DNA of 64,000 nucleotides from Alistipes sp. (GTDB lineage Bacteria; Bacteroidota; Bacteroidia; Bacteroidales; Rikenellaceae): NCBI GenBank assembly GCA_017555905.1, contig JAFZFP010000027.1, positions 57,243-121,242 of the forward strand, written 5' to 3'. The position numbers and the translations under genes are program-made. How positions within the stretch are numbered: position 1 is the stretch's first letter; every line of letters begins with the position of its first letter. Below the pieces are notes generated by a model. That model saw only the letters and a list, made by a program, of their open reading frames with translations, was not told the DNA's origin and searched no databases. Shown here piece by piece: positions 1,336 through 55,140 of the stretch.

Positions 1336-1366
1336 TTGACAAACGCATTTTCACGTTGTATATTTG
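1336..1366 (+). promoter_or_regulatory. Strong promoter of the phage-type operon
   Basis: TTGACA at 1336-1341 and TATATTTG at 1359-1366 are 17 bases apart. The site fits both the Bacteroidota -33/-7 pattern (TTG, TAnnTTTG) and the classical sigma-70 consensus. It is the only strong promoter I see upstream of the eight-gene cluster. Confidence 0.75.
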
Positions 1367-1611
1367 CACTGTCAAACGGATGCTAACGAGAGTTGAAACG
1401 TAGGACTAAGGTCGAGGTGTGTGGCCGTGGTCGAAAAGTTGTAAACATTCGTAAAAAGCATATATACAGCGGATAAGGCTGGATTATTAATACCAATTAA
1501 CATCTAATAAACATAGTTATTAACAGGCGCTAACAGTCTCTGTAAAAGGAGTGTTCACGAGTGCTTGCAAGGACGAGTACACTATTTACTAACGTATTAA
1601 AATATTTGACT
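1367..1611 (+). other. Long untranslated leader of the phage-type operon
   Basis: About 240 bases separate the promoter from the first credible ATG. An open frame from GTG at 1561 would add 17 residues, but they do not resemble the protein that follows. The last part contains a loose inverted repeat (AGTGT near 1548, ACACT near 1577). I recognise no riboswitch or known RNA family. The length suggests room for post-transcriptional control. Confidence 0.4.
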
Positions 1612-2571
1612 ATGAAATTTACATCTATCCCCTCAAATGGCGCAGATTGGAACAAGCCACTGCTCTATACCATTGAGACAGACGAGTCTGACTCGGAGAG
1701 TGTTGCTGTAGATATTGTCGATGTAAACACCAGGCAATCAATAGGGTCATTTACGATTTACACCTCCACGACAAAGAGTTTCGACATTGCACCCTACCTG
1801 CGAAGCCAAGCGAGTATCGACCCTGTAGTACAGCAGAGTGGAATTGCGATATCGCCCTCGGCATTCAATGTCAGGGTGGTGGCGAATGGCATAGGGTCGG
1901 CACCTTGTCTATTTTACAGAGCGCCAATCGATTACACCATATCATCCATCTTGAGTGATGCCGTGGAGAGTGACGAGGTCTCGGTGGGTGATGTATTCAA
2001 ACTGACAATCTTTGCAGCCAAGAAGGTGATGGTGAAGGTTACTCGCTATTGGTTGTCGCCGAAAGTGTATGAGTATTCGATTGATACGCAGTGCAAACCA
2101 GTGGAGTTCTCCTACCTCTTCACCTCCACGACGACCCAAGATAAGTTCACAATTGAGGTGTTCTGTGATGGCACGCTAATTAAAACATACTCACGCAGTT
2201 ATGTGCAATCCGCAGGCACTCAGACACTGCTTTGGTACAACCCTCGCGGAGGTATTGAGACCTACCCATTCCCTAAGCAGACGAGACTCTGTTGTCGGGC
2301 GGAGATAGAGAATCTGCAGGATGGTATGGGGGCATATACAAGGTTGAGTGGAGCGACAACCCGAAGCGTGCTATGCTCGGCATACGAGAGTGAGGAGCGC
2401 ATAAAGCACTTAGCTGAGATAATCCTTTCGCCAAGAGTCTATACGTGGCGAGGTGGTGAGTGTCAGGAGGTTAGACTCGCCAAACGAGAGATAGAGTTCA
2501 ATAATCGGGGCCAACTCCTAAGCCTTGACATAGAGATTGAAGAGAAGTGGAAAGGGGGTAGACTATGGTAA
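1612..2571 (+). CDS. Phage tail-tip-like structural protein
   Basis: The product is a 319-residue, beta-rich soluble protein without signal peptide or membrane segment. The motif LLWYNPRGGIETYPFP near residue 210 resembles a W-Y-N-x-x-G-G-I/W stretch that I associate with tail-tip proteins of Bacteroidetes tailed phages. I give this from memory, not from a search. It is the first gene of the cluster, and its end overlaps the next start in ATGGTAA, which suggests translational coupling to the 777-residue protein. In siphophages a distal-tail protein directly before a hub protein is a common order, which supports the call. ATG 1612 was preferred to GTG 1561 because the extra residues look random. 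The exact role is inferred. Confidence 0.5.
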   Translation: MKFTSIPSNGADWNKPLLYTIETDESDSESVAVDIVDVNTRQSIGSFTIYTSTTKSFDIAPYLRSQASIDPVVQQSGIAISPSAFNVRVVANGIGSAPCLFYRAPIDYTISSILSDAVESDEVSVGDVFKLTIFAAKKVMVKVTRYWLSPKVYEYSIDTQCKPVEFSYLFTSTTTQDKFTIEVFCDGTLIKTYSRSYVQSAGTQTLLWYNPRGGIETYPFPKQTRLCCRAEIENLQDGMGAYTRLSGATTRSVLCSAYESEERIKHLAEIILSPRVYTWRGGECQEVRLAKREIEFNNRGQLLSLDIEIEEKWKGGRLW

Positions 2572-4898
2572 CCTTGTTTATCGACGGTATCGATTGTCCA
2601 TTGGTTGAGGGACGAGTGGCGTTTCCGCTCTTCAATGCCAAGAAGTTGCGTAGCATAGAGGATTGGCGCAGTGGCGAGAGTGTGGTGTTGGAGGTGGAGG
2701 CCACACCTCAGATGGATTGGCTCTTTGGCTTTGCCAATGAGGCCAACCATATCGAGGAGTTTAACACCTCCTATCACCTTGGCGAGGTGAGGGTGGATGG
2801 CGTATTGCTCATTGCGGGTGTCGCCTCACTCGTCGGGGCAAGAGTCGGTAAGAGCCGTAGTTACAGGGTGGAGGTGCGTACGGGAGGTGCGGAGTGGGCT
2901 GATAATGTATCTACTACACGTCTGAGTGCTACAGACATTGATACTGAGCGAATTATGACCCTAACCTCCGTTAAGCAGTCGTGGCGAGATGATGGCGATG
3001 TAAGGTTGTTGCCGATTAAGCGAGACACTTATGTCAAGGAGGCGCATACGGGGCAGTATGTACCTCAGCAGACGATTCTTCCGCAGGACTACCACCCCTT
3101 CCTCTCGTTGCGTGCCATAGTCGAGAAGAGTATCTGTCGCGATGGCTACACCATCCAGAGCAACTTCCTCGACACGGAGTTCTTCAAGAGCCTGATGCTA
3201 AGTGGAGCATATAGTCAGCCCGAGATAGAGCAGGCCTATAGCACAATGGACTTTAAGGCTGTGCGCTCGAAATCCACTACCACGACATCGTCGCTGAGTG
3301 GTAGGGTAGATGTCTCTGCTCCAGAGGGTGGTTGGCGCTTAGGTCCATTGGTCGATACAATCTCGCCCTCGACGTTGGATGAGAATGGTGACGAGTGTTA
3401 CGAGGCCTTTTCACGAGGCGGTTGCTTCAAGATAGTGTCGGGCATCCCCACGTTTCGCCCAAGTCGAGAGGTGCGCGTGGCATTCGACCTCAGACTGCAC
3501 TACACCACCGACTACCGCATAATCTCCTCGACACGCCTTGAGGGCTACGACAAGATATATATAAGTAGCGATTGTTATGTCGATGTAGATCTTATAAACC
3601 CATATAAGGATAGGCGTGCGACGGCCCAGCCAGGCATACAATATACGCTCTTTATCTTCGACTACAATCCCGAGGCATCCTATAGGCTAAGTAGTTATGG
3701 CACTGTGGTTTCGGCGGTGTCGTCGATAGTTCTGCCTAAGAGTTATACGGGCCGATTGACGCTCTCGGTTATGCTTCCTGGCCAGACGATGTATGCCCCT
3801 TACGATGGTGATTGGGCGCTCTACGATGGCATCATCTCCGAGACGGGTCGAAGAGAGGTGGATATCACTCTGCGCACACCCTTCGAGGTGCTTACACCCT
3901 CCTCGCCCAAGGAGTTCCAGACTATCTACTTCTATGGTGCCTCAGCGGAGCAGAACCTCACCCTACATTCTGGGTGTAGCATAGTCCCCATATTTGGAGG
4001 TACGGCGGGCTATGGCGAGTTACTCTCGTTCAAGGATGTGGCGCATCACGACATCTCGCAGGCCTTGGCTATTGAGGCTGTGGCTCACCTCTTTAACCTT
4101 TGTATCTATACGCATATTCCGACCAAAAGGGTCTATATCGAGCCTTACGATGACTTCTTCAATGGCGAGGTTGTCGATTGGCGAGAGAGGCAACGGCGTG
4201 AAGACGAGGTGATTAGCGAGGGAGCATCGGAGGGCTATATGGCTGAGACGCTGGGCTACCAGCAGTCGGATGGCGCTACGGCGCGTCTCACCTCGGGCTC
4301 CGAACCGCCCTTTGGACGATGGAATATAGCCTACCGTAACTACGCTGTCAAGGGTAGTGTTCGCAGTCGCCTGAATCCGATTCTGTTGGCTACGGCATCT
4401 ATGGATAATGCTACGACCCTTGCACCATCGGCAAAGTTCTTAGTGGTGGGTGACCGTGACCGCATTGCTAATCAGGAGTATATAGCGCCACGTATTGTAT
4501 CGTACCAGGGTGTGAAACAACTCCCCAATGGCGAGATGTGGCCCTTGTCGAGTGGCATAAACTACTATCCGTTAGTCACCTTCCACGATCCTGATAGTGG
4601 GGTGAGCCTCTGCTTCGAGGATAGGGATGGCTGTAGTGGCCTGCACAGATACTACGATAGGGAGTTGCAGGAGACCTACTTAGGTCAGACCCTCACAACG
4701 AATATAGCATTGGCGCCCGAGCAGTATATGAAACTCTTCGACCCTATGTCCGAGGAGGCCAACATACGGTCACGCTTTCTCCTTAATATAGGTAGTAGCA
4801 GTGCGCTCTTCCGTCTCGACGAGATAGTCTCGTATGATGCCGAGAAAAAGGTTGCCCGTTGCAGATTTCAGCGAGTCCTAAGCGGGCAAACAGAATAA
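2565..4898 (+). CDS. Phage tail hub/baseplate-like protein
   Basis: This large protein (777 residues) has no signal peptide and is rich in short beta-strand patterns and aromatic residues. Its C-terminal 250 residues (around SEEANIRSRFLLNI and RLDEIVSYDAEKKVARCRF) resemble the end of tail-hub or fibre-attachment proteins of Bacteroidales phages, in which a final domain records a value on an inner ring. This is pattern memory, not alignment. It overlaps the previous gene by 7 bases and is followed 21 bases later by the protease gene, so it belongs to the same transcript. No frameshift or internal stop is present over 2.3 kb, so the gene has been kept under selection or arrived recently. A surface adhesin is less likely because nothing would export it. 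Confidence 0.45.
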   Translation: MVTLFIDGIDCPLVEGRVAFPLFNAKKLRSIEDWRSGESVVLEVEATPQMDWLFGFANEANHIEEFNTSYHLGEVRVDGVLLIAGVASLVGARVGKSRSYRVEVRTGGAEWADNVSTTRLSATDIDTERIMTLTSVKQSWRDDGDVRLLPIKRDTYVKEAHTGQYVPQQTILPQDYHPFLSLRAIVEKSICRDGYTIQSNFLDTEFFKSLMLSGAYSQPEIEQAYSTMDFKAVRSKSTTTTSSLSGRVDVSAPEGGWRLGPLVDTISPSTLDENGDECYEAFSRGGCFKIVSGIPTFRPSREVRVAFDLRLHYTTDYRIISSTRLEGYDKIYISSDCYVDVDLINPYKDRRATAQPGIQYTLFIFDYNPEASYRLSSYGTVVSAVSSIVLPKSYTGRLTLSVMLPGQTMYAPYDGDWALYDGIISETGRREVDITLRTPFEVLTPSSPKEFQTIYFYGASAEQNLTLHSGCSIVPIFGGTAGYGELLSFKDVAHHDISQALAIEAVAHLFNLCIYTHIPTKRVYIEPYDDFFNGEVVDWRERQRREDEVISEGASEGYMAETLGYQQSDGATARLTSGSEPPFGRWNIAYRNYAVKGSVRSRLNPILLATASMDNATTLAPSAKFLVVGDRDRIANQEYIAPRIVSYQGVKQLPNGEMWPLSSGINYYPLVTFHDPDSGVSLCFEDRDGCSGLHRYYDRELQETYLGQTLTTNIALAPEQYMKLFDPMSEEANIRSRFLLNIGSSSALFRLDEIVSYDAEKKVARCRFQRVLSGQTE

Positions 4899-4919
4899 AT
4901 CTTTAATATCTAAAATTTT

Positions 4920-5822
4920 ATGAGTCAGTTAATTAAAATCAAGAACGAAGTAAGCCTCACGACCATCGACATTGAGGGTACTATCGGAATGGAGGAGGCG
5001 TGGCAGTTCGACAACCCCGACAGCCGTGTTGCTACTTACGAGCGCTTCCGCGAGAGTGTGTCGCAAATTGCCGACATCCAGAATAGCGAAATCAGGGTCA
5101 ATATCCGCTCCACGGGTGGCGATGTGAACGATGCCATTCTCATCTACGAGGCCCTGCGTGCTACGGGAGCAAAGGTTACCACCTGCTGCTATGGCTATAC
5201 TGCCTCGGCAGCGACCATTGTGGCACAGGCTGCAAGTGAGGGGTGTCGCCTCATAGCACCCTCCTCGCTCTACCTCATCCACAACTCCATCTGTGCCACG
5301 GAGGGTAATGCCGAGGAGTTGCAGGCCGAAGTGGAGATGTTGCACCAGACAGATATGCGTCTTGCCGATATCTATGCCACACGCTCGGGCCGAGATGTCG
5401 AGGAGATAAAGGCGCTTATGGCCGAGAATGGTGGCCGAGGTAAGTGGCTCTCGCCCGAGGAGGCTATTGCGATGGGGTTGGTGGATGCTGTGGAGGATGT
5501 GGTGACTCCGACGACAACCTTTACGGAGCGAACGAAGCAGGCTGTAGTGGCTTTGCTCAACCACCTGGGTATCACGACTGAGGCCTCGTCACCAGAGCCT
5601 CCGCACCCTGCCGACGATGTCAATATTGTGGTACGTAACAGCCAGAATGATAAGCCTTTGGTGTCGCCTAAGGAGATGTCGCTCATCGCTCTAAAGGAGG
5701 CACAGCGCAATGTCGAGGCCTCAAAGGTTAAGAGTGTGCAAGACCCCAATCCCGTGGATCTCGATAGCGACCCTCGCAAGTTGGCCTACGAGTCGGATGC
5801 ACGCAAAATGCGACTACGATAA
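4920..5822 (+). CDS. ClpP-like (S14) prohead protease
   Basis: The first 200 residues have the ClpP fold pattern. INIRSTGGDVND is the oxyanion-side GG(D/E)V loop, the nucleophile is Ser96 in GYTASAATIVA, and the histidine is His121 in YLIHNS. The RGKWLSPEEAIAMGLVD segment is typical of phage ClpP-type maturation proteases. Residues 200-300 are charged and low in structure and could act as a scaffold that is cut during assembly. The gene directly precedes the capsid gene, the usual place for a protease that trims the capsid or scaffold during prohead maturation. Host ClpP has about 200 residues, lacks such a tail and is rarely beside a capsid gene. Catalytic residues look intact. Confidence 0.85.
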   Translation: MSQLIKIKNEVSLTTIDIEGTIGMEEAWQFDNPDSRVATYERFRESVSQIADIQNSEIRVNIRSTGGDVNDAILIYEALRATGAKVTTCCYGYTASAATIVAQAASEGCRLIAPSSLYLIHNSICATEGNAEELQAEVEMLHQTDMRLADIYATRSGRDVEEIKALMAENGGRGKWLSPEEAIAMGLVDAVEDVVTPTTTFTERTKQAVVALLNHLGITTEASSPEPPHPADDVNIVVRNSQNDKPLVSPKEMSLIALKEAQRNVEASKVKSVQDPNPVDLDSDPRKLAYESDARKMRLR

Positions 5823-5884
5823 CGAAACATCGGGAGCAATCCCAAACAAACTTTTTTACTAACACTTAAACACATTTTAAAATT

Positions 5885-6853
5885 ATGGGACTTATTGAAA
5901 ATCCTAAGACCTACACAGGTCGTGATCTTGAGACTATCTTCTTTCGCCCTATGTTGGTAGGCCAGAATGCCGAGCAACTTGGTATCCGTGTGATGTACAA
6001 TATGCCGGTGCCGACAACTATCCAGTTGTGGAGCCCTCGTGCCGATGTGCTTACGGCCTATAGTTCGGGCTGGAGTGGTGGCGACTGCGCTACACGCGGA
6101 CAGAAGAGCATCGAACTAAGTAAAATCAAGGCCGAGGTTGGCTTCTCCGCTTCGGACTACTTCCAGCAGGTCTATGAACTTATCGTGGGTCGTGCGGATG
6201 TCAATCTCGATGATCTCACAGGCTCGGAGTTGGAGCAGGCAGAGACGGAACTCTTCCGTGCCTCTATCGCTGAGAGTCTGCGCGTTACGATGTGGATGGG
6301 AGATAAGCAGGCCTCGTCGTATAACCTCTTCGACGGCTTCTTGACCTTGGCCCACAGGTATAGCGCCAGCCCTGAGGTGGGCAAGGTAGATTTCCAGGGT
6401 AAGAGAGTGAGTCGTGAGACCATTATCGAACTCCTCTCCTCGATGTGGGACAATGCCTCGCCAGAACTCAAGTCGCTCAAGGCTGAAGGTAACCTCGCCT
6501 TCTTCGTGACTACGGATGTCTACGATGCCTACGAGCGCTACCTCGACAGTTGTGGTGCGGATGGCGCTTATACCGACCTTATCTCGGGACGCAGAGAGTT
6601 GTCCTACCACGGTATCAAGATTGTCGATATGGGTGTGTCGAAGTATCTCGATGCAGATGGCAATCTCACCCCTACGCAGTGCCTTCTCACGGATCGTCGC
6701 AACCTTGTCTTGGCGGTGAACACATCGGATTATCCAGGCTCGGAGGTGCGTATGTGGTATAACCCCGATGCTATGGAGAATCGCCAGCGTGCTGTCTTTA
6801 TGGCAGGTGCTGAGATCCTCGATGAGACAATCCTCGTGGTGGCTAATTTTTAG
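5885..6853 (+). CDS. HK97-fold major capsid protein
   Basis: This 322-residue protein lies between a prohead protease and a portal gene. Its C-terminal part, with LLTDRRNLVLAVNTSDYPG and then a mixed aromatic strand ending in ETILVVAN, has the pattern of HK97-type capsid subunits of Bacteroidales phages. The N-terminal arm (MGLIENPKTYTGRDLETIFF) is short, so the subunit probably is not made with a long delta domain, and scaffold function may lie in the protease tail. It would form the shell of an icosahedral particle. No stop or frameshift interrupts it. An encapsulin is the alternative, since encapsulins share this fold, but the neighbouring portal and connector genes favour a true phage-type capsid. 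Confidence 0.8.
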   Translation: MGLIENPKTYTGRDLETIFFRPMLVGQNAEQLGIRVMYNMPVPTTIQLWSPRADVLTAYSSGWSGGDCATRGQKSIELSKIKAEVGFSASDYFQQVYELIVGRADVNLDDLTGSELEQAETELFRASIAESLRVTMWMGDKQASSYNLFDGFLTLAHRYSASPEVGKVDFQGKRVSRETIIELLSSMWDNASPELKSLKAEGNLAFFVTTDVYDAYERYLDSCGADGAYTDLISGRRELSYHGIKIVDMGVSKYLDADGNLTPTQCLLTDRRNLVLAVNTSDYPGSEVRMWYNPDAMENRQRAVFMAGAEILDETILVVANF

Positions 6854-6884
6854 TCACACAAAACGTCTAACGTGTTAAATCTTA

Positions 6885-8114
6885 ATGACTATGAGTAAAA
6901 AGATTGCTACACGTGTCGTTGCAACCTCTAACCGCTCCGAGTCCCTCTTGGGTTCGGAGGGTGGGGGTGCTTCGCAGACGTGTGATAAGATATGGCGCTG
7001 GGGTAGCGATAATATGTTGCCCTATGCCCTTTCGCTCCTGGCTCGTCGTTCGGTTGCTCATCGCAGAATCATAAACGACAAGGCCGACTACGTGGCTGGC
7101 AAGGGGTTGGTATATGACGACAATCCGCTGTTGCACCATATAGCCACTTCGGCGAATGGTAGTGGTGAGTCGCTCCGTAGCGTGATTGCACGCTTGGCCT
7201 TGGATGAGGCGATGTTTGGTAATGCCTTCTTGGAGGTGGTGACTAACGAGCAGAAGAGTCTACTCTCGTTCTACCATATAGATGCCTCGAGATGTCGCAT
7301 TGCCAACGACTCTAAGCACGTAGTAATCCACCACGACTGGCGAAATTTTAGTGCTAAGGATGCTGCAACCCTCTCGCTATATCCCAACTTCGAGAGGTGC
7401 GATGATGGCACTCTCCGTGCGGTGGTACACTACAAAGATTATGAGCCGATGTTTTCGCACTATGGCGTAGCCCCATACGTGGCGGGTATGGATGCTGCGG
7501 CCATCGTCTATAAGACCGACAGGTGGAACATCTCGCGCATTGATAGTTCCTTTCAACTCTCGGGAGTGATGGTACTCGATAATAGTGTGGAGAACGAGGA
7601 GGAGGCCAGCCGTATAGTGCGTCTTGCCGAGGAGCGTTTTGCAGGAAACCCTGGCCAGGTACTTTTCGTATTGCGCGACCAGAACGAGGGTGACAACTCC
7701 CGATTCATCCCGATAAATACCTCCTCGGATGGTGACTGGCAACGCCTACACACTCAGGCTGAGTCGGACCTTGTGGTGGCACACTCCTGGTTTCGCTCGC
7801 TGAGTGGCTTGGACTACTCCTCGGGCTTCTCCACCGACCGCATCCTCAACGAGTATGAGGTGGCCTTGAATACTGTCATTCGCCCCGAACAGGTTCAGTT
7901 ATTGGAGCCTATACGCGCCATAATCGAGCAGGTGCTTGGTGTCGATGCCTCGTCACTGGATATTGTGAACTGCCCACCATCGCGCTCTAAGCCACTCTAT
8001 ATGAAGGTGTGGGAGGCTCGCAAAGCCGATGGTCTCGACTACGATGAGAGTGATGCCGACCAGCAACGCCTATTGGCTGAGATAACGAAGTATAACATAC
8101 GATCAATAGAGTAG
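6885..8114 (+). CDS. Phage portal protein
   Basis: The 409-residue protein fits the short portal family of siphophages. It starts with a polar N-terminus, then WRWGSDNMLPYALSLLARRS and the AHRRIINDKADYVAGKGL segment, in which a helix leads into the first domain. The C-terminal half has helices typical of the crown and stem (HSWFRSLSGLDYSSGF, NEYEVALNTVIRPEQV). A portal forms the 12-fold ring at one capsid vertex through which DNA enters and leaves, so its presence argues that the particle once packaged DNA. A second ATG at 6891 could be the start. The gene follows the capsid gene, the reverse of the usual portal-protease-capsid order. Confidence 0.85.
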   Translation: MTMSKKIATRVVATSNRSESLLGSEGGGASQTCDKIWRWGSDNMLPYALSLLARRSVAHRRIINDKADYVAGKGLVYDDNPLLHHIATSANGSGESLRSVIARLALDEAMFGNAFLEVVTNEQKSLLSFYHIDASRCRIANDSKHVVIHHDWRNFSAKDAATLSLYPNFERCDDGTLRAVVHYKDYEPMFSHYGVAPYVAGMDAAAIVYKTDRWNISRIDSSFQLSGVMVLDNSVENEEEASRIVRLAEERFAGNPGQVLFVLRDQNEGDNSRFIPINTSSDGDWQRLHTQAESDLVVAHSWFRSLSGLDYSSGFSTDRILNEYEVALNTVIRPEQVQLLEPIRAIIEQVLGVDASSLDIVNCPPSRSKPLYMKVWEARKADGLDYDESDADQQRLLAEITKYNIRSIE

Positions 8115-8118
8115 AGAG

Positions 8119-8565
8119 ATGGATACACTAATAAAATCAGATGATGTTTTGTCGCTCGCCTACACTGCAGATGGCCGTGTGACGAACCTAAAGATTACGA
8201 AGGTGGATATCGCAGCGGCTGAGGGCCAGTTCCTTCTGCCAATCATTGGCGAGGAGTTGTATAAGAGTCTTATGCAGGGTAAGTACCCGACACTACTTCA
8301 GGAGTACGTAGCACCTCAGGTGGCCGCCTGGACACGATATATTGTCGAGCCTATAATGGTCGAGCGATGTGGCTACGAGAGTAGTGCGGCCTATAACGAG
8401 GTGCGCAAGGTGATCTATCGTCGCCTGAGGGGCATTGCCCGAAGCCTCTCGCGCCAACTGAGCAACTACCTCAATGCTCACTGCGACGAATTTCCGGAGT
8501 ATAACCCTGCAGATAACCCATTAAACCACTGTAGTATAGATGGAGATGTTGTGCAAATATTTTAG
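8119..8565 (+). CDS. Head-tail connector-like protein
   Basis: A 148-residue, largely helical protein follows the portal after only 4 bases. The segment ITKVDIAAAEGQFLLPIIG and the later helices (EVRKVIYRRLRGIARSLSR) match the small head-completion proteins seen behind portal or capsid genes in Bacteroidetes phages. Such proteins form a ring under the portal and bridge to the tail. Identification rests mostly on position, size and general pattern. The end of the gene overlaps the holin start by 26 bases. Confidence 0.6.
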   Translation: MDTLIKSDDVLSLAYTADGRVTNLKITKVDIAAAEGQFLLPIIGEELYKSLMQGKYPTLLQEYVAPQVAAWTRYIVEPIMVERCGYESSAAYNEVRKVIYRRLRGIARSLSRQLSNYLNAHCDEFPEYNPADNPLNHCSIDGDVVQIF

Positions 8566-8965
8566 CGCCTTGCTGGCGTCGCTATGTGGTCTGCTCTGTC
8601 CTATAGCGCCTCTTATCAGTGCCGCGATGGCCTTCATCACCATCGACTTCATCACGGGTGTCGTAGCCTCGCGTGCTGTGGCAAAGCGAGAAGGGAGGGA
8701 GTGGTGGATAGAGAGTCGCAAGGCGTGGCGCACGGTGCTTAAGGGAGGCTTTGTCGCCATCGCGATTGTGATGATGTGGGTGATAGACCACGCCATATTG
8801 GAGTTTATGCACCTCAACCTCGCCAACCTCTTCACGGGCTTTGTCTGTGGCGTGGAGTTATGGTCTTTCTTGGAGAATGCTACAACCATCAGTGGCTCGC
8901 CACTCTTTGAGTGGTTGGGGCGCTGGGTGAAGCGACGTGTAGGGAAGGAGGTGGGAGATGAGTAG
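8540..8965 (+). CDS. Phage holin-like membrane protein
   Basis: This 141-residue protein has three hydrophobic stretches: about residues 6-32, which continue into FITIDFITGVVASRAV, 72-90 (GGFVAIAIVMMWVIDHAI) and 93-115. The ITIDFITGVVAS motif is typical of the Bacteroidetes members of the holin-4/toxin-secretion holin family. Holins make lesions in the inner membrane to release a lysis enzyme at a set time. The reading frame overlaps both neighbours, which suggests coupled translation. An ATG at 8546 is an alternative start and could give a slightly shorter second form, as known for some dual-start holins. Confidence 0.8.
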   Translation: MEMLCKYFSALLASLCGLLCPIAPLISAAMAFITIDFITGVVASRAVAKREGREWWIESRKAWRTVLKGGFVAIAIVMMWVIDHAILEFMHLNLANLFTGFVCGVELWSFLENATTISGSPLFEWLGRWVKRRVGKEVGDE

Positions 8966-9362
8966 AGGTTTAAGAAATTGCAACCCAGGCAATATCCGTC
9001 GTTCGAGGGTGAGGTATGTGGGAGAGGTTGTGCCGAGCAGAGATAGCGAGTTCAAGGAGTTTCAGTCGTTGGCCTATGGCTACCGTGCGATGTTCGTGTT
9101 GTTGGATAGTTACTGTCGTCGTTATGGTCTATCGACGATTCGCCAGATGCTCAACCGCTACGCTCCCCCTACGGAGAACTTCACCGAGGGCTACATTCGT
9201 TTTGTCGCCGAGCGCTCGGGAATCTCGCCCGACGAGGAGTTGGACACGCGCTCTCCACGAGATATGGTGCCTGTAGTCTCGGCAATGTCCGAGATTGAGA
9301 ATGGGGTCAAGGCCGTTGTTAAAGATGTGGAGGAGGGTTGGAGACTCTTTATATCCTCCTGA
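8958..9362 (+). CDS. Phage structural protein P5-like / lysis protein
   Basis: The N-terminus MSRGLRNCNPGNIRRSRVRY is the hallmark of a small protein family common at the end of lysis modules in Bacteroides and Alistipes prophages, often named structural protein P5. The R-G-x-R-N-x-N-P-G-N-I-R motif resembles the substrate-side loop of some lysozyme-like domains, and the family is generally assumed to cut peptidoglycan. It follows the holin with an 8-base overlap, the classical holin-lysin order. At 134 residues it is complete and ends just before the operon terminator. No signal peptide is present, consistent with holin-dependent release. Confidence 0.7.
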   Translation: MSRGLRNCNPGNIRRSRVRYVGEVVPSRDSEFKEFQSLAYGYRAMFVLLDSYCRRYGLSTIRQMLNRYAPPTENFTEGYIRFVAERSGISPDEELDTRSPRDMVPVVSAMSEIENGVKAVVKDVEEGWRLFISS

Positions 9363-9375
9363 TTATAAGTAAGAA

Positions 9376-9409
9376 GGGCGTGTCCAAATATCGGACACGC
9401 CCTCTTTTA
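9376..9409 (+). terminator. Terminator of the phage-type operon
   Basis: A perfect 10-bp stem (9376-9385 with 9393-9402) with a 7-base loop is followed by TCTTTTA. It lies between the last phage-type gene and the convergent fabG. The stem contains the GTGTCC/GGACAC core found in other terminators of this window. Confidence 0.85.
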
Positions 9410-9429: not shown

Positions 9430-10176
9430 TTAGCAATTCATAGCACCACAGCAATGGAGTACCTGACCGCTGACATAAGATGAGAGGTCAGAAGCGAGGA
9501 ACAATGCTACGTTAGCAACATCCTCAGGTGTACCACCACGACGCAAAGGAATCTGTGCAGCCCACTGATCCTTCACCTCCTGTGAGAGCTGGTTAGTCAT
9601 ATCTGTAATGATGAAGCCTGGAGCGATGCAGTTAGCACGGATGCCACGAGGGCCCATCTCCTTAGCGATAGACTTAGCCAAACCAATCATACCTGCCTTT
9701 GAAGCAGAGTAGTTGCACTGGCCAGCGTTACCGCTAACACCCACAACAGATGACATATTGATAATAGAACCGCTACGCTGCTTAGCCATAACAGGAGTTA
9801 CAGCGTGGATGAAGTTGAACGCAGACTTGAGGTTTACGTTGATTACAGCATCCCACTGAGCCTCAGACATACGCATCATAAGACCATCCTTAGTGATACC
9901 AGCGTTATTAACCAATACGTCGATGCGACCGAAGTCCTCGACAATCTGCTTAACAACCTCGTGGCTCTCGTCGAAGTTCGCAGCATTTGAAGCGTATGCC
10001 TTAGCCTTAACGCCCATAGCCTCAATCTCCTTTACGGTCTCCTCTACAGCCTCGTTGATTGCCAAGTCGGTGAATGCTACGTTAGCACCCTCCTGAGCAA
10101 AACGCAAAGCGATAGCCTTACCAATACCACGACCTGCACCTGTTACAAGTGCTACCTTTCCTTCAAGAAGTTTCAT
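9430..10176 (-). CDS. fabG: 3-oxoacyl-ACP reductase
   Basis: FabG reduces beta-ketoacyl-ACP with NADPH in each cycle of fatty-acid elongation in the cytosol. The TGAGRGIGKAIA nucleotide-binding loop is at residues 13-24, NNAG near residue 90, and the catalytic Ser and Y-x-x-x-K (YSASK) near 150-155. The 248-residue length is normal. The last residues, HCCGAMNC, carry three cysteines where most FabG proteins end in a glycine/methionine-rich strand. This is odd but keeps the family length. It is the last gene of a fabH-fabF-fabG series, 33 bases after fabF. Confidence 0.95.
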   Translation of the reverse strand: MKLLEGKVALVTGAGRGIGKAIALRFAQEGANVAFTDLAINEAVEETVKEIEAMGVKAKAYASNAANFDESHEVVKQIVEDFGRIDVLVNNAGITKDGLMMRMSEAQWDAVINVNLKSAFNFIHAVTPVMAKQRSGSIINMSSVVGVSGNAGQCNYSASKAGMIGLAKSIAKEMGPRGIRANCIAPGFIITDMTNQLSQEVKDQWAAQIPLRRGGTPEDVANVALFLASDLSSYVSGQVLHCCGAMNC

Positions 10177-21507: not shown

Positions 21508-23763
21508 TTACATATAGAATGGGCGGATGTAAGTTGCGTTGTATGATGGAGTGAACGCCTTAGTCTCAACGCTCATAGTCTCAGCCTTAGCCTCGAATAC
21601 AGGCATCTCAACGCTTGCGCTCTCGAAGTTCAAGGTGATACCTGTGTTCTTGCCAATAACTACAGACTCAGGCATATAGAATGACTTGCTTGACTTGCCA
21701 GATGCAGCATTCAACTCATCAACCAAAGCCTTCAACTCGTTGATGTCGCCCTTGTTCTCTGCAGTTGCACAAGAGTAAGCACGGCCGATACCACCAATAA
21801 GACCATTCTGGTCTATAGCGTATGCCAAGCCAGTCTGTACAGCATCCCACTCAGCAACATAGAAGTTATATGGCTGGCTAAGCTCAGTGCCCTTCCATAG
21901 GCCAGTAGCCAATCGCCACAACGCTGGGTCAGGGTACTCGTTAAGGTTTGTCACGTCGTCACCTACCATGGTGGTAAAGAGTGAACGAGCACCATCAAAG
22001 CCACTATACTTAACAACTGAGATAGCCTTACCCTTAGTTGCTGCTGGCGCGCCAAATACGCTACCATTCTCCTCGTCACCAGAGTAGTGACCTACGATCT
22101 CTACTGTAGGGGTGATAGAGCCGACCTCCTTAGTAGTGAAGAGATTCTCGAACTTGTGGAGCTTAACAACGTGACCAGTCTCGAATGAGAGAGCAGCTAC
22201 GAAGCCCATAAGAGTAGTGTTAGGGGTGAAGCCACTTCCGTTGATATTCTGGTTGCCACGGTAGTAGAGGAGGCTCATAATGTCGAGAGGAGTAGTGTTT
22301 GGATTGTCCATCTCTCTGTACATTGCGAGAGTCTCATCGAAGCCTGCGTCGAGAACCTCGATGATAGTCTCCTCGTCGAAGTCTGCTGGGTTGCAAACAT
22401 CTACAACGTAGAATGTAGAGGTGTCGCTTGTCTTGAGCTCGATATCAGCGCTATAAGGGGTGATATTCGAAGCCGTCATTGTGAATGTAGTATCCTCTGG
22501 GTTGCCAGCCTTTGCTGAGTGGAATGTAACCATCTCAGGCTCTGAAGTGATACCACCAGCGTAACCGAATGCGATAACGTAGTAGTCGGTATCAGGCGAT
22601 GGCAATGAGTACTTGTAGATGCTGCCAGGGCCACCAGTGAAGTCCTGAACGCCAGTGTAGAGCATCATGCCACTGTTCATCCAACCGCCCCATTGCGCAA
22701 CGATGCCGTTCATAATCTCCTCAGCAGTTTGCTGACCATCCCAAACGTCGCACATCCAGCAGAATGTATCCTTGTTGTTAGAAGGGGTAACCTTGATGGC
22801 TGCCTTAATCGCCTCGATGTCTGTAACAGAGATCTCGAAAGAGATGTTTTTAGCCTTAACCTCGCCAGTGGTGTAGGTTGTAGTGTAAGGCTCAGTAGCG
22901 ATAGTTACCTGACCTTCCTCAGTCACGAAGAAGCCAGAAACCATATTGATATACTCAGCGTTTGCAATAAGGTCCTTAGCCTCGAGGGTAAGAGTACCCT
23001 TGTGGAAGATGTTGTTCATAATTGCATTATCTGAGTATCCTGCTGAACGCCAGTTGTTGATGTCCATTTCGAGGCAGAAGAGCATAAACTCCTTCTTGCT
23101 CATTCTGTAACCGCCTTCTGGGTCGGTGTATGCGTCGAATGTAGCCTTAGGCAATGTGTAGAAGTACCAGATATCCTCGTCGTTCGAAGGAGTTACGGTG
23201 TAGGTAGCGCTGTTGCCATCTACGGCAGTCTCGATCTCGAAAGTAGTAGCGAGGGTAGCGGCCTCAGCAGTAGTAAACTTTGTCTTGAGCGCCTTTGTTG
23301 TAGCCTCGTAGTTCTTTGCAGGGTCTACACCGAATACGATGATGTAGTAGTCGCTCTCTGGTGCGAGACGTGATACCTTAACGTCGGTAAGTACACCCTT
23401 GTCCACTACCTCAGGCATAAACTCAGCAAATGTCTTACCAGTTGTACGAGCCTCAGCCTCAAGCTCCTGGTAGAGAGTAGCGATGAGGTACTCATCCTTA
23501 GTGAAGTCGTCAGCGCTCTCCACGTCATAGATAACGCAGAGGTACTCAGCCTCAAGATCTGAAGGGGTTACGCTGTATGTAACCGAAGAAGAGGTGATCT
23601 CGCCAAGAGTTACCTCGAAAGTCAAGCCCTCAGGAGTGCCAGGCTGCTCGTTGCCACCAGGCTGCTCGTTGCCACCAGGCTGCTCCACATTAGGGTTCTC
23701 ACAAGCGACAAAAGCGAGTGTTACCACTGCCAACATCGCCATCAACCAATTGAATCTTTTCAT
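21508..23763 (-). CDS. Large surface lipoprotein with four Ig/FN3-like repeats
   Basis: The N-terminus MKRFNWLMAMLAVVTLAFVAC is a lipoprotein signal with the modified Cys at residue 21, followed by a flexible linker of GGNEQP repeats encoded by near-identical 18-base units (about 23640-23690). At least four related beta-sandwich units follow, each starting with a T/S-F-E/T-hydrophobic strand and a V/L-T/K-P/T-S motif, at about residues 47, 162, 302 and 425. The protein is acidic and extracellular in character. I recognise no enzyme motif. It probably sits on the cell surface or in the periplasm and binds a ligand. A TTTG-N20-TACTTTTG promoter precedes it on the minus strand. Confidence 0.7.
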   Translation of the reverse strand: MKRFNWLMAMLAVVTLAFVACENPNVEQPGGNEQPGGNEQPGTPEGLTFEVTLGEITSSSVTYSVTPSDLEAEYLCVIYDVESADDFTKDEYLIATLYQELEAEARTTGKTFAEFMPEVVDKGVLTDVKVSRLAPESDYYIIVFGVDPAKNYEATTKALKTKFTTAEAATLATTFEIETAVDGNSATYTVTPSNDEDIWYFYTLPKATFDAYTDPEGGYRMSKKEFMLFCLEMDINNWRSAGYSDNAIMNNIFHKGTLTLEAKDLIANAEYINMVSGFFVTEEGQVTIATEPYTTTYTTGEVKAKNISFEISVTDIEAIKAAIKVTPSNNKDTFCWMCDVWDGQQTAEEIMNGIVAQWGGWMNSGMMLYTGVQDFTGGPGSIYKYSLPSPDTDYYVIAFGYAGGITSEPEMVTFHSAKAGNPEDTTFTMTASNITPYSADIELKTSDTSTFYVVDVCNPADFDEETIIEVLDAGFDETLAMYREMDNPNTTPLDIMSLLYYRGNQNINGSGFTPNTTLMGFVAALSFETGHVVKLHKFENLFTTKEVGSITPTVEIVGHYSGDEENGSVFGAPAATKGKAISVVKYSGFDGARSLFTTMVGDDVTNLNEYPDPALWRLATGLWKGTELSQPYNFYVAEWDAVQTGLAYAIDQNGLIGGIGRAYSCATAENKGDINELKALVDELNAASGKSSKSFYMPESVVIGKNTGITLNFESASVEMPVFEAKAETMSVETKAFTPSYNATYIRPFYM

Positions 23764-23861
23764 AGTTAGTTTGTTTAATTAAGTTGTAAAGTATATTGTT
23801 ATTTTGCTTTTTGCACAAAGTGTTGAATCTTGCTATACTCGAACGCATACTTACCAATGTA

Positions 23862-23893
23862 CAAAAGTACATTATTTCTCTAAAAGCACCAAA
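23862..23893 (-). promoter_or_regulatory. Promoter of the 751-residue lipoprotein gene
   Basis: On the minus strand TTTG (23893-23890) and TACTTTTG (23869-23862) are 20 bases apart, about 100 bases before the ATG. The rest of the 296-base gap holds no gene I can support. Confidence 0.6.
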
Positions 23894-24013
23894 TTTTTCA
23901 GGGAGAAACTGTATAGCAAGGCTCCTTTGGCGTTACGCTCACTCTCAAAATGCTCATTTCATCCCAAATATACGCACCTATATCCTTCCCTCAGCAATAA
24001 GCCACCAACGACA

Positions 24014-24039
24014 AAGGGCTACCCCGAAAGATAGCCCTT
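24014..24039 (-). terminator. Hairpin after the BACON lipoprotein gene
   Basis: An 8-bp stem (24014-24021 with 24032-24039) lies about 20 bases past the stop. The T-run after it is weak, so termination efficiency is uncertain. Confidence 0.5.
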
Positions 24040-24059
24040 AATCTCTTTGATGGACTCGG

Positions 24060-25370
24060 TTAGAATAGTCTACCTGTCCAGTTGAGTGTTACCTTGTGTG
24101 CTGGGTCGGCATCGTCCTTGGCATCGATGACGATGGTGTAGTTGTTGTTGCCGTTGTCGGTGATTGTCATTGTGCCATCGAAAATTGGGGCTTGATCCAA
24201 GCCTACGCCATTAGCGTAATCAATTACCAATGAGCCCATTAGGAACTGACCGTCGTCGCTGATTGAGAAGCCAGGGATAAAGGTGTATGCCTTGAAGTCG
24301 GGCTTTGTCTCATCCTCTGCCGAGAAGCCTGTAGAGGTGTATGTTCCCGCGATTCCCGAAGCGCCATTGATAATGTCGTCGGTCAAGAAGTCGAGTACGA
24401 GGTATGTGCCATACTTTAGACCGTCGTCGCATACGAACTCAATCTGCCAGTTGCAGAAACCACACTCCCAGTAATCGCCGAAGCAATTGAGTGTTCCTGC
24501 GCAGTTTGTGAGGTCTATTTCGTAGTCGCTGTCGAGGGTAGAAACGTGGTCTGCCACCTCGTTGTATGTTAGTTCGTAGTCGCCCTTGAATGTCACGTAA
24601 TACTCTGTCGTAGTGCGCAATTCGTCGTTCTGCACCTCTGCTGTGAGGGTGAACTTGTTGCCCTCCACCACCAACTCGGCGTAGGTGAATGACGACGACC
24701 ACGCCTCGTTGTTGCCATCTACGAGTACATAGTCTGTATCGCCGATGTTGAGCATGGTGTAGATGTTGAAGTTATTTGCCGTGTCGAGGGTGTATGTGCC
24801 GTCGGGGACACGTGCGTTGTGAGGGTCCTCCGATAGTGGTCCAAGGATGTCGAGACGGAAGAACTCTGAGTTGCGCACGGTGCTACCATTAACGATGCCA
24901 CCGTCGGTGAGGATTACCCAGTAACGACCGATGCCCGAGAGTGAGGTGTCGTCGTACGAGCCGATAAGTGTGTCTGCCTCTACGGTCACTGTCGCAGCCT
25001 CCTGGGTCTTAGGCTCTTGGATGACCTCCACGCTGAAGCAGTGTTCCTTGAAACTTACCAAGACAGTAGCCTTGCGACTTGTCAGGGTTGTGTTTTCCGA
25101 AACGTGGATGCGCACGTAACCGCGCGACTCATAGTTCATTGCTGTTACTACCTCGGTGTTATCCGCTACTGCCCAGGCTGTTGCACCCTCCTCGGCTACG
25201 AGGTCGTAAGTGATTGTGAAGTTACCGCCCTGCTGTGGCACGTTGATTGTAGGCTCTGATGTCAGGGTGAGTGGTGAGTTGTTGTTTGGCTCGCTTGGGG
25301 CCACTGGCTTTTCGCACGCAACTGCCAACGCTACAATCATAGCGAGGAGTGCAAAAATAGACCTTTTCAT
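24060..25370 (-). CDS. BACON-domain surface lipoprotein
   Basis: The signal peptide ends in ALAVAC, with the lipid-modified Cys at residue 19. Residues about 36-115 form a BACON domain (EPTINVPQQGGNFTITYDL, later SENTTLTSRKATVLVSF and VEVIQEP), a carbohydrate- or mucin-associated Ig-like fold of Bacteroidota. The remaining 300 residues contain beta-rich repeats with Asp/Asn-rich loops and no motif I know. The protein is probably an outer-membrane surface lipoprotein. It is divergent from the 1246-residue lipoprotein gene, with which it shares a 300-base regulatory gap. Confidence 0.75.
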   Translation of the reverse strand: MKRSIFALLAMIVALAVACEKPVAPSEPNNNSPLTLTSEPTINVPQQGGNFTITYDLVAEEGATAWAVADNTEVVTAMNYESRGYVRIHVSENTTLTSRKATVLVSFKEHCFSVEVIQEPKTQEAATVTVEADTLIGSYDDTSLSGIGRYWVILTDGGIVNGSTVRNSEFFRLDILGPLSEDPHNARVPDGTYTLDTANNFNIYTMLNIGDTDYVLVDGNNEAWSSSFTYAELVVEGNKFTLTAEVQNDELRTTTEYYVTFKGDYELTYNEVADHVSTLDSDYEIDLTNCAGTLNCFGDYWECGFCNWQIEFVCDDGLKYGTYLVLDFLTDDIINGASGIAGTYTSTGFSAEDETKPDFKAYTFIPGFSISDDGQFLMGSLVIDYANGVGLDQAPIFDGTMTITDNGNNNYTIVIDAKDDADPAHKVTLNWTGRLF

Positions 25371-54881: not shown

Positions 54882-55070
54882 TTCAAAGTAGTATAAGTCT
54901 TTAATGTTGAGGAGGGTTGTTTGATGGGCTTTGGTCTGTCGAACGACCCTCCTCTTTTTGTTGTTTACCTACTTGGCGAGTGCTGTTTTGGCGAATTGGG
55001 CCATATTGTATATTTATGCTCTATATGTCGGAATATTCGGGTAATATGCACGTTGTTAGAAAAAAAACAC

Positions 55071-55078
55071 TATCTTTG
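55071..55078 (+). promoter_or_regulatory. -7 element of the 910-residue lipoprotein gene
   Basis: TATCTTTG lies 62 bases before the ATG. A TTG at 55053 is 15 bases upstream, rather close. Confidence 0.5.
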
Positions 55079-55140
55079 CGCGGATATACTCTTAAATAGG
55101 TATTGACGAATACACACTAATAACCAAATATTTAACTTTT

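Follow-up and report, generated by a model that had tools for sequence, protein, structure and literature searches.

A conserved phage-derived operon of Alistipes and its unlinked terminase locus: a probable gene-transfer-agent-like element

What is an operon of capsid, portal and lysis genes doing between two housekeeping genes of a gut bacterium? The window, which is the whole 64,000-nucleotide stretch of Alistipes sp. DNA analysed here, carries such an operon at 1612-9362, with eight intact and partly overlapping genes on one strand, next to the divergent prfA on the left (minus strand, 116-1201) and the convergent fabG on the right (minus strand, 9430-10176). An earlier note on this DNA had described eight same-strand, intact, overlapping genes between prfA and the fab genes under one promoter and one terminator, and the description was borne out by the reading frames of the window, by a promoter-like site with 11 of 12 matches and by a hairpin that is the longest terminator-like one in the scanned region. 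The genes flanking the operon on both sides are housekeeping genes, not the integrase, replication and early genes of an active prophage. The element to which the operon belongs, known from genes alone, is probably a domesticated, gene-transfer-agent (GTA)-like phage particle encoded at two loci, with the operon as its structural and lysis locus. The features of the operon are as follows.

1336..1366, plus strand: predicted operon promoter (TTGACA, 17 nt, TATATTTG; 11 of 12 matches)
1367..1611, plus strand: long 5' leader with the repeated sense-strand motif TTATYRACA
1612..2571, plus strand: g1, 319 aa, tail-tip-like by position alone, fast-evolving, without family match
2565..4898, plus strand: g2, 777 aa, tail hub-like by position alone, without family match
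4920..5822, plus strand: g3, ClpP-type head maturation protease (PF00574 9e-30; phrog_94 2.5e-38; PDB ClpP 2e-15)
5885..6853, plus strand: g4, major capsid protein (phrog_1623 virion structural protein 1.4e-5; position after the protease)
6885..8114, plus strand: g5, portal protein (phrog_11226 9e-22; PF04860 4e-9, just under the cut-off)
8119..8565, plus strand: g6, head-tail connector-like protein, DUF6712 (PF20459 1.4e-5, just over the cut-off)
8540..8965, plus strand: g7, phage holin (PF05105 1.8e-12)
8958..9362, plus strand: g8, endolysin (phrog_873 4e-41; PDB endolysin 7q47 1e-7)
9375..9403, plus strand: predicted terminator hairpin (11 pairs; 14 on the other strand), common to the convergent fabG

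The family search of all eight proteins, which the earlier note had called for, gave matches to phage families for five of them and to DUF6712 for g6, so that its labels for the protease, capsid, portal, holin, lysis gene (an endolysin) and connector were retained. Its "tail tip" pair, g1 and g2, yielded neither a Pfam match over the cut-off nor a PHROGs match of weight, and the two are called tail-like on the sole ground of their place, since a relative of g2 sits before the tape-measure gene in related prophages. For the capsid, 24 of 28 aligned sequences matched phrog_1623 (best 2e-15), and a capsid profile found no match among PDB sequences. The connector-like g6 follows the portal in 96 of 96 loci (duplicates included) and overlaps the holin gene by 14 to 23 bases in 78 of 85. 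The start of g1 is most likely ATG 1612 and not GTG 1561, because its homologues begin at the former position and seven of them have an in-frame stop just upstream.

Upstream of g1, the promoter-like arrangement TTGACA-17-TATATT lies within 1336-1364, and its core is conserved across 30 aligned upstream regions adjoining prfA. In the window and in 29 relatives the operon lies beside prfA; other species have it elsewhere. The leader carries a clear copy of TTATYRACA at 1517-1525 with degenerate copies nearby.

The earlier note had listed neither terminase nor repressor. This was right for the operon region, but a search of the host genome, as the note had proposed, located a large terminase and a repressor on another contig, unlinked to the operon; the description "without packaging genes" is therefore wrong at genome level. 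The second locus comprises three genes.

Contig 3 of the own genome, 22438-23889, minus strand: terminase large subunit, TerL (phrog_38 3e-94), intact
Contig 3 of the own genome, 23901-24188, minus strand: p95, 95 aa, between terminase and repressor
Contig 3 of the own genome, 24343-25023, plus strand: CI/LexA-like S24 repressor (PF00717 and HTH_19), facing p95 and terminase

The arrangement recurs across the genus, as the repressor (XRE helix-turn-helix plus S24 peptidase) was present in all 20 genus terminase loci fetched and p95 was detected in 19 of them. The Walker A GKS and the acidic nuclease residues, which we take to be the terminase ATPase and nuclease motifs, are nearly invariant in 32 terminases (30 from the family, two from prophages). 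Comparison of the terminase with PDB sequences returned only weak matches to repeat proteins, taken as meaningless, and no terminase small subunit was recognised in the two loci of the own genome.

Terminase and operon mostly occur together. A PF03237 search gave a match in 68 of 73 genus genomes and in one of 47 others, mostly one per genome; with the own-genome terminase as query, 169 of 180 genus genomes matched at 1e-20, including 68 of 70 high-quality ones. Both terminase and portal are present in 162 of the 180 and neither in a single genome, G201, as derived from the listed misses. All 30 portal-bearing genomes from 14 genera, chosen for the portal, hold a terminase as well, which lies on another contig or far from the operon in most genomes placed. 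Exceptions exist among high-quality genomes in both directions: G109 and G258 have the terminase and neither capsid nor portal, the terminase locus of G109 being whole, and G043 and G102 have capsid and portal with no terminase match at 1e-20. The earlier note had offered a GTA-like particle with its terminase elsewhere as one option, and a mostly single-copy, intact, same-lineage terminase at a second locus in most operon-bearing genomes is what that option predicts, and supports it. In two family members, G291 and G298, the terminase gene stands immediately before those for protease, capsid, portal and DUF6712, in a cluster with no recognised tail genes, and in one of the two a repressor gene stands beside this block; in G308 the terminase is found ~5 kb upstream of g1. 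The terminase on the same stretch as structural genes in these three members is counted in favour of the two-locus reading as an ancestral linkage.

The origin of the operon can be read from complete prophages. Two genomes of the genus, G006 and G108, carry a prophage of the same lineage (L139 with L118 and L142 with L119, respectively) besides the operon. Each prophage encodes a small (PF03592) and a large terminase together with several small genes, a relative of g2, a tape measure (893 or 770 aa), a protease, a capsid, a ~171-aa gene, a portal and a DUF6712 gene, as well as early-region genes, all in one stretch, and that of G006 also has an integrase (PF00589 3e-24). Their proteins are 25-52% identical to those of the operon depending on the gene (capsid 47-48%, portal 51-52%), and the terminase of the second locus is 57% identical to the prophage TerL; on comparison of the sequences, operon and full prophages of the same genus were shown to share descent. 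The order g2, (tape measure), protease, capsid, (tube-like), portal, DUF6712 is the same in both, whereas the small terminase, the tape measure, the early genes, the single stretch and, in G006, the integrase set the prophages apart. The order of the operon, with tail genes first and the portal after the capsid, had earlier been thought unusual; it is normal, because the related prophages have the same one.

Between these prophages and the eight-gene operon stand intermediate forms. In basal genera the operon is fuller: the three loci read also encode a small helical protein, one protein of ~250 aa, another of ~140 aa before g1, a short one at the place of the tape measure and one of ~170 aa between capsid and portal. 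Compared by eye, the short protein looks like the C-terminal end of a tape measure. Within the genus, a ~135-aa gene before g1 and a ~160-aa gene between capsid and portal are both present in 17 and both absent in 53 of 70 judgeable loci, never one alone; without seven duplicate pairs, 63 distinct loci divide into 16 with both and 47 with neither. A Fisher value for this co-loss ignores relatedness and was set aside, and on the portal tree two changes suffice for the distribution. Outside the 70, a terminator-like gene with no tube-like match is present in family loci L260 and L265, and genus locus L122 shows the reverse. A profile of the ~160-aa protein had no match anywhere in 19 of 22 genomes, the own genome included, and the other three have it in the operon. 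Position and co-loss allow the guess that the ~160-aa protein, which had no PHROGs match of weight, is tail tube-like and the ~135-aa protein tail-terminator-like, in which case the lineage of the window lost both genes, the pair mostly vanishing together. A tape-measure query against 141 loci matched only its two source prophages, and no relative of the prophage integrase was found in the window. The earlier statement that tape measure, tail tube and integrase are missing thus held in the window for the tape-measure query, the tube-like profile and the prophage-integrase comparison.

The persistence of head parts after the loss of tail parts, together with the two family members whose clusters have no recognised tail genes, could also fit a shell or defence device, in which capsid, portal and terminase interfere with phages of the same lineage or form a compartment, with lysis as an altruistic end point. 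Capsid and terminase parts common to both could poison the assembly of the complete related prophages found in the genus. G006 and G108 nevertheless hold both operon and such a prophage, so that the operon does not exclude its relatives, and a pure decoy would need neither intact packaging motifs nor lysis genes; the device is considered rather unlikely.

A second alternative, which the retained lysis genes favour, is a PBSX-like killing particle, which would pack host DNA without delivering it and act as a bacteriocin against neighbours that lack the cluster or differ in it. The tail-tip-like g1 evolves fastest (dN/dS 0.59), which would suit a protein that recognises targets. Killing of the PBSX type requires a complete tail with tube and tape measure, and in the lineage of the window no tape-measure, tube-like or terminator-like gene was found; nor was an immunity gene noticed. 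This explanation, too, is unlikely. PBSX itself packs random 13 kb pieces that are not transferred, and acts much as a bacteriocin does, according to part of one account (PMC7667829).

The operon is spread through most of the family. The portal was detected in 115 of 121 genus genomes (own included) and in one of 79 others of the order, and across Rikenellaceae in 243 of 268 genomes, 106 of 110 high-quality genomes and 17 of 22 genera. An order-wide draw of 393 genomes produced 16 portal matches, five from the family and 11 others at 20-42% identity. A pattern search of a further collection matched 219 stretches, 206 of them relatives, of which 80 were kept, from Alistipes, Rikenellaceae and two Bacteroidales genomes. 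The cultured species A. montrealensis has the operon too (L074). The gene order is constant among the 96 loci compared, in which g1 was detected in 75, the holin in 85, the endolysin in 86, g2 in 88, the protease in 90, the capsid in 95, and the portal and g6 in 96; some of the gaps are contig ends. The sets of 96 operon loci, 74 leaders and 70 co-loss loci contain duplicates, the same genome having come from two collections. Two outcomes that the earlier note had named as fatal to its idea did not come true: the cluster is found in most relatives, not absent from all close ones, and no locus read has a full prophage at this site with decay here. Four IMG/VR contigs and one "Bacteriophage sp." record carry pieces of the operon or close homologues, for which reason virome catalogues probably count it as virus. 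The record, MT838736, is a 7.4 kb unannotated sequence from human stool with homologues of g2 and capsid and, by eye, g1-like and protease genes.

Median pairwise dN/dS (0.05 < dS < 1.2) is well below 1 for most genes, at odds with the value near 1 that the earlier note had thought would tell against it. In the operon the medians are 0.20 for the portal, 0.27 for the holin, 0.29 for both protease and endolysin, 0.32 for the capsid, 0.350 for g2, 0.44 for g6 and 0.587 for g1, with g1 and g6 evolving fast; at the second locus they are 0.10 for the repressor, 0.19 for TerL and 0.43 for p95. Purifying selection acts on both loci, although the constraint on the element genes is much weaker than on prfA (0.02).

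A few copies are broken. None of the 86-96 matched copies each of g2, g3, g4, g6, g7 and g8 has an internal stop. Among 71 copies of g1, 10 were flagged for a stop. In seven the stop precedes the first Met, no more than 13 residues from where the match begins, and in the other three it is at the penultimate residue; given these positions, none is internal to the gene. The flagged portal L068 and terminases L186 and L194 have the stop within a few residues of the end, and portal stops flagged in G271, G289 and G298 were absent inside the tblastn match. A real internal stop is found in the portal of G287, whose KorA is broken too; the terminase of G289 has stops and is split, and that of G265 matches in two pieces and is probably broken. 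The count left out copies with a match to less than 60% of the query, with N or out of frame, and may therefore be too low for frameshifted copies.

Inheritance was followed with trees of portal, TerL and the host marker KorA from 26 genomes, leaving out G047, G259, G261 and G287, where KorA is missing, divergent or split. Of 23 splits, 12 are common to the portal and TerL trees, whereas 1000 label permutations never gave more than 3; each of the two trees has nine of 23 in common with the KorA tree, where permuted labels gave no more than two. Distances correlate at 0.77 for portal and TerL, and at 0.63 and 0.77 for the pairs with KorA, with permuted maxima of 0.62, 0.33 and 0.37; within the genus, the portal-TerL value is 0.76 versus 0.70 for permuted labels. 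As permuted labels reached 0.62, the agreement of portal and TerL distances is weaker evidence than the shared splits. Both loci are co-inherited with the host and have diversified along with it.

Two further explanations can be judged on this ground. A decaying, functionless prophage remnant would account for the missing phage parts, the constraint far below that of prfA and the single genomes with a broken or missing gene. The presence in most of the family, the mostly open frames, the dN/dS below 1 at both loci, the gene order unchanged in 96 loci and the co-inheritance all stand against it, and it is very improbable. A satellite or mobile island that forms capsids and moves with a helper phage would resemble the element in having genes for heads and packaging but few or none for tails, a composition also seen in capsid-forming phage-inducible islands (cf-PICIs). 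A cf-PICI is one mobile unit with its own integrase, whereas here most of the genomes placed have the terminase on a different contig or at a great distance, which rules out movement as a single unit; the window has no relative of the prophage integrase, a weak integrase-like match lies beside five of 136 other loci, and the trees follow the host. Such a satellite is accordingly highly unlikely.

The domesticated GTA-like element, independently arisen in Bacteroidota, remains as the best reading and is favoured with some confidence. Among the six features by which GTAs are recognised, as given in part of PMC9662315, three were found. The proteins derive from a caudoviricete ancestor, as shown by phage-family matches of protease, capsid, portal, holin, endolysin and terminase and by homologous full prophages; the genes are endogenised at several loci, here two on different contigs, repeated across the genus; and inheritance is vertical, with co-diversification. 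The other three features concern the particle itself, namely that it packs mostly random host DNA, that its head is too small for the whole of its own genome, and that it delivers its load to other cells.

Regulation offers hints of a link between the two loci and of a control step at the RNA level. In 74 leaders (window and duplicates included) the motif TTATYRACA occurs 101 times on the sense strand and never on the antisense strand, with a shuffle mean of 1.1, and its density of 3.0 per kb in leaders compares with 0.05 per kb elsewhere, about sixty times less. This strand bias downstream of the promoter suggests an RNA-level step. DnaA boxes were considered for the leader and discarded, as TTWTNCACA is not clearly enriched (7 sense, 6 antisense, shuffle 3.9), and an Rfam search of the leader found nothing. 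A putative repressor operator, TTCAA-N3-TTGAA, is present in 21 of 25 repressor intergenic regions; upstream of the operon just 8 of 75 regions have it (shuffle 3.1), so that the palindrome does not convincingly tie the two loci together.

The own genome matches the pattern CTTGACAAA-N12-16-TAnnTTTG at exactly two places, before the operon and, at the second locus, before p95 and terminase. A private promoter shared by the two loci was rejected, because the counts vary in relatives (five in G040, three in G056, two in G059, one each in G041 and G022) and extra matches precede unrelated genes: two of the three extra ones in G040 were read, and both lie upstream of such genes, which are related to each other, one of them AAA-ATPase-like, and perhaps belong to a mobile element. 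For the same reason the pattern is read as a strong promoter class rather than a private signal, which leaves it suggestive only of a link between the loci. Ribosomal RNA promoters were also considered for the extra G040 matches, where Rfam found no RNA.

From gene content, conservation and co-inheritance we infer how the element might act. Locus 1 (1336-9403) would supply capsid, maturation protease, portal, connector, two tail-tip-like proteins, holin and endolysin, and locus 2 the packaging motor and, on the facing strand, the CI/LexA-like S24 repressor. S24 repressors are typically inactivated through RecA after DNA damage; inactivation here would allow p95 and terminase to be made, while the structural operon would be driven by its own promoter, with a control step in the leader RNA. 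Proheads would mature and be filled by the terminase non-specifically with pieces of the host chromosome, there being no phage genome to pack, and holin and endolysin would burst a minority of cells and release the particles, which would deliver the packaged DNA. In the lineage of the window the particle may be tailless or very short-tailed, since the tape measure, tube-like and tail-terminator-like proteins are gone and the two tip-like ones are kept. That two loci so distant would be packed as one small fragment seems unlikely. The full account, in which an ancient, independently exapted GTA of Bacteroidota with two unlinked loci in most of the family discarded its tail tube at least twice, kept tip proteins and packaging motor, and moves host DNA in particles with a very short tail or none, controlled by a phage-type repressor and a switch in the leader RNA, is favoured only tentatively, as a possibility rather than the expected outcome.

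Known systems resemble the element in part. RcGTA has a full tail, whereas the Alistipes element in the lineage of the window has neither tube nor tape-measure genes; PBSX of Bacillus subtilis forms one long cluster with a complete tail. FpGTA of Faecalibacterium places the terminase with head genes and lysis with baseplate and fibre genes, in contrast to the Alistipes element, where head and lysis genes are together and the terminase is apart with the repressor. FpGTA particles were seen, whereas the evidence here is genetic. With PBSX the element shares the character of a domesticated defective phage packing host DNA, as part of PMC7667829 describes it. Part of PMC9662315 defines GTAs as genes of phage origin that have become fixed in a bacterial lineage, in many cases at more than one locus, and are inherited with the host, a description that fits RcGTA, CcGTA and the Alistipes element alike. 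RcGTA and CcGTA belong to alphaproteobacterial hosts, of an unrelated phylum, and differ from the Alistipes element with its phage-type S24 repressor beside the terminase. The Caulobacter GTA (CcGTA) is controlled by activators and antitermination (PMC11150451, in part), whereas in Alistipes only the leader motif hints at RNA-level control.

In searches of the open-licence PMC literature, no publication on such an element in Alistipes, Rikenellaceae or Bacteroidota was found. GTAs are described mainly in Alphaproteobacteria, Brachyspira and lately Faecalibacterium, to judge from parts of PMC9662315 and PMC12946183, and in part of PMC7667829 neither "Alistipes" nor "Rikenell" appears. Packaged DNA in human stool was the subject of a 2026 study (PMC12946183), which lists Rikenellaceae among the most abundant families in total DNA; its main text has "Rikenellaceae" once and "Alistipes" never. 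Of its 25 GTA-like events, 23 are linked by name to other families in that part of the study, an argument against high activity of the element in its three donors.

Among gut Bacteroidota, Alistipes and its relatives are common. If the reading of a domesticated GTA-like element is true, a family-wide particle would give a major gut lineage a means of exchanging genes, or of killing, that can be tested in cultured species. The series of losses, which runs from the full prophage over the fuller operon down to eight genes, offers a natural experiment on which phage parts a host needs to retain.

At two loci inside the Rikenellaceae (L257 and L258), the proposed two-locus, gene-transfer-agent-like system is found in one piece, with no recognised tail genes. 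In both, the DUF6712 gene product is larger, and the p95-like gene is separated from the terminase gene by a small gene, for which no family match was found and which could encode a terminase small subunit.

L257:8373-16018, one-piece version
L258:8162-14702, one-piece version

The terminase locus lies close to korAB in several Alistipes species (L157, L158, L163 and L164). In the window's genome, korAB is located on the window's contig (35892-38818) and the terminase off that contig, a separation suggesting that the surroundings of a conserved locus have been rearranged.

The operon or a close homologue is also carried by contigs catalogued as viral (L002-L005 from IMG/VR, and L138, MT838736), which are probably chromosomal. 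Elsewhere in the window, large secreted lipoprotein-like genes, judged by eye, occur in runs at 21508-25370 and 51897-57873.

The 9-nt motif TTATYRACA recurs in the operon leader (1367-1611) and 73 related leaders on the sense strand only (101 occurrences versus 0 on the opposite strand), and in the operon leader these repeats possibly act as an RNA-level switch. Three promoters almost identical to that of the operon (L277, L278 and L279) are held by one relative's genome, G040. Related genes, one of them AAA-ATPase-like, follow the two that were read (L277 and L279), and perhaps belong to a mobile element.

Compact head-and-packaging clusters were present in four genomes from other Bacteroidales families.

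L316:9350-16159, head-and-packaging cluster
L317:8817-16371, head-and-packaging cluster
L318:5351-11073, head-and-packaging cluster
L319, head-and-packaging cluster

Each contains a portal relative (34-37% identical) alongside DUF6712-like and capsid-like genes, faced by a large terminase of a different family from the system's, namely Terminase_3 (PF04466) in the two tested, L316 and L317. Neither a tail gene nor an integrase was apparent in the ORF lists of three of the four clusters. These clusters may represent a second, independent domestication.
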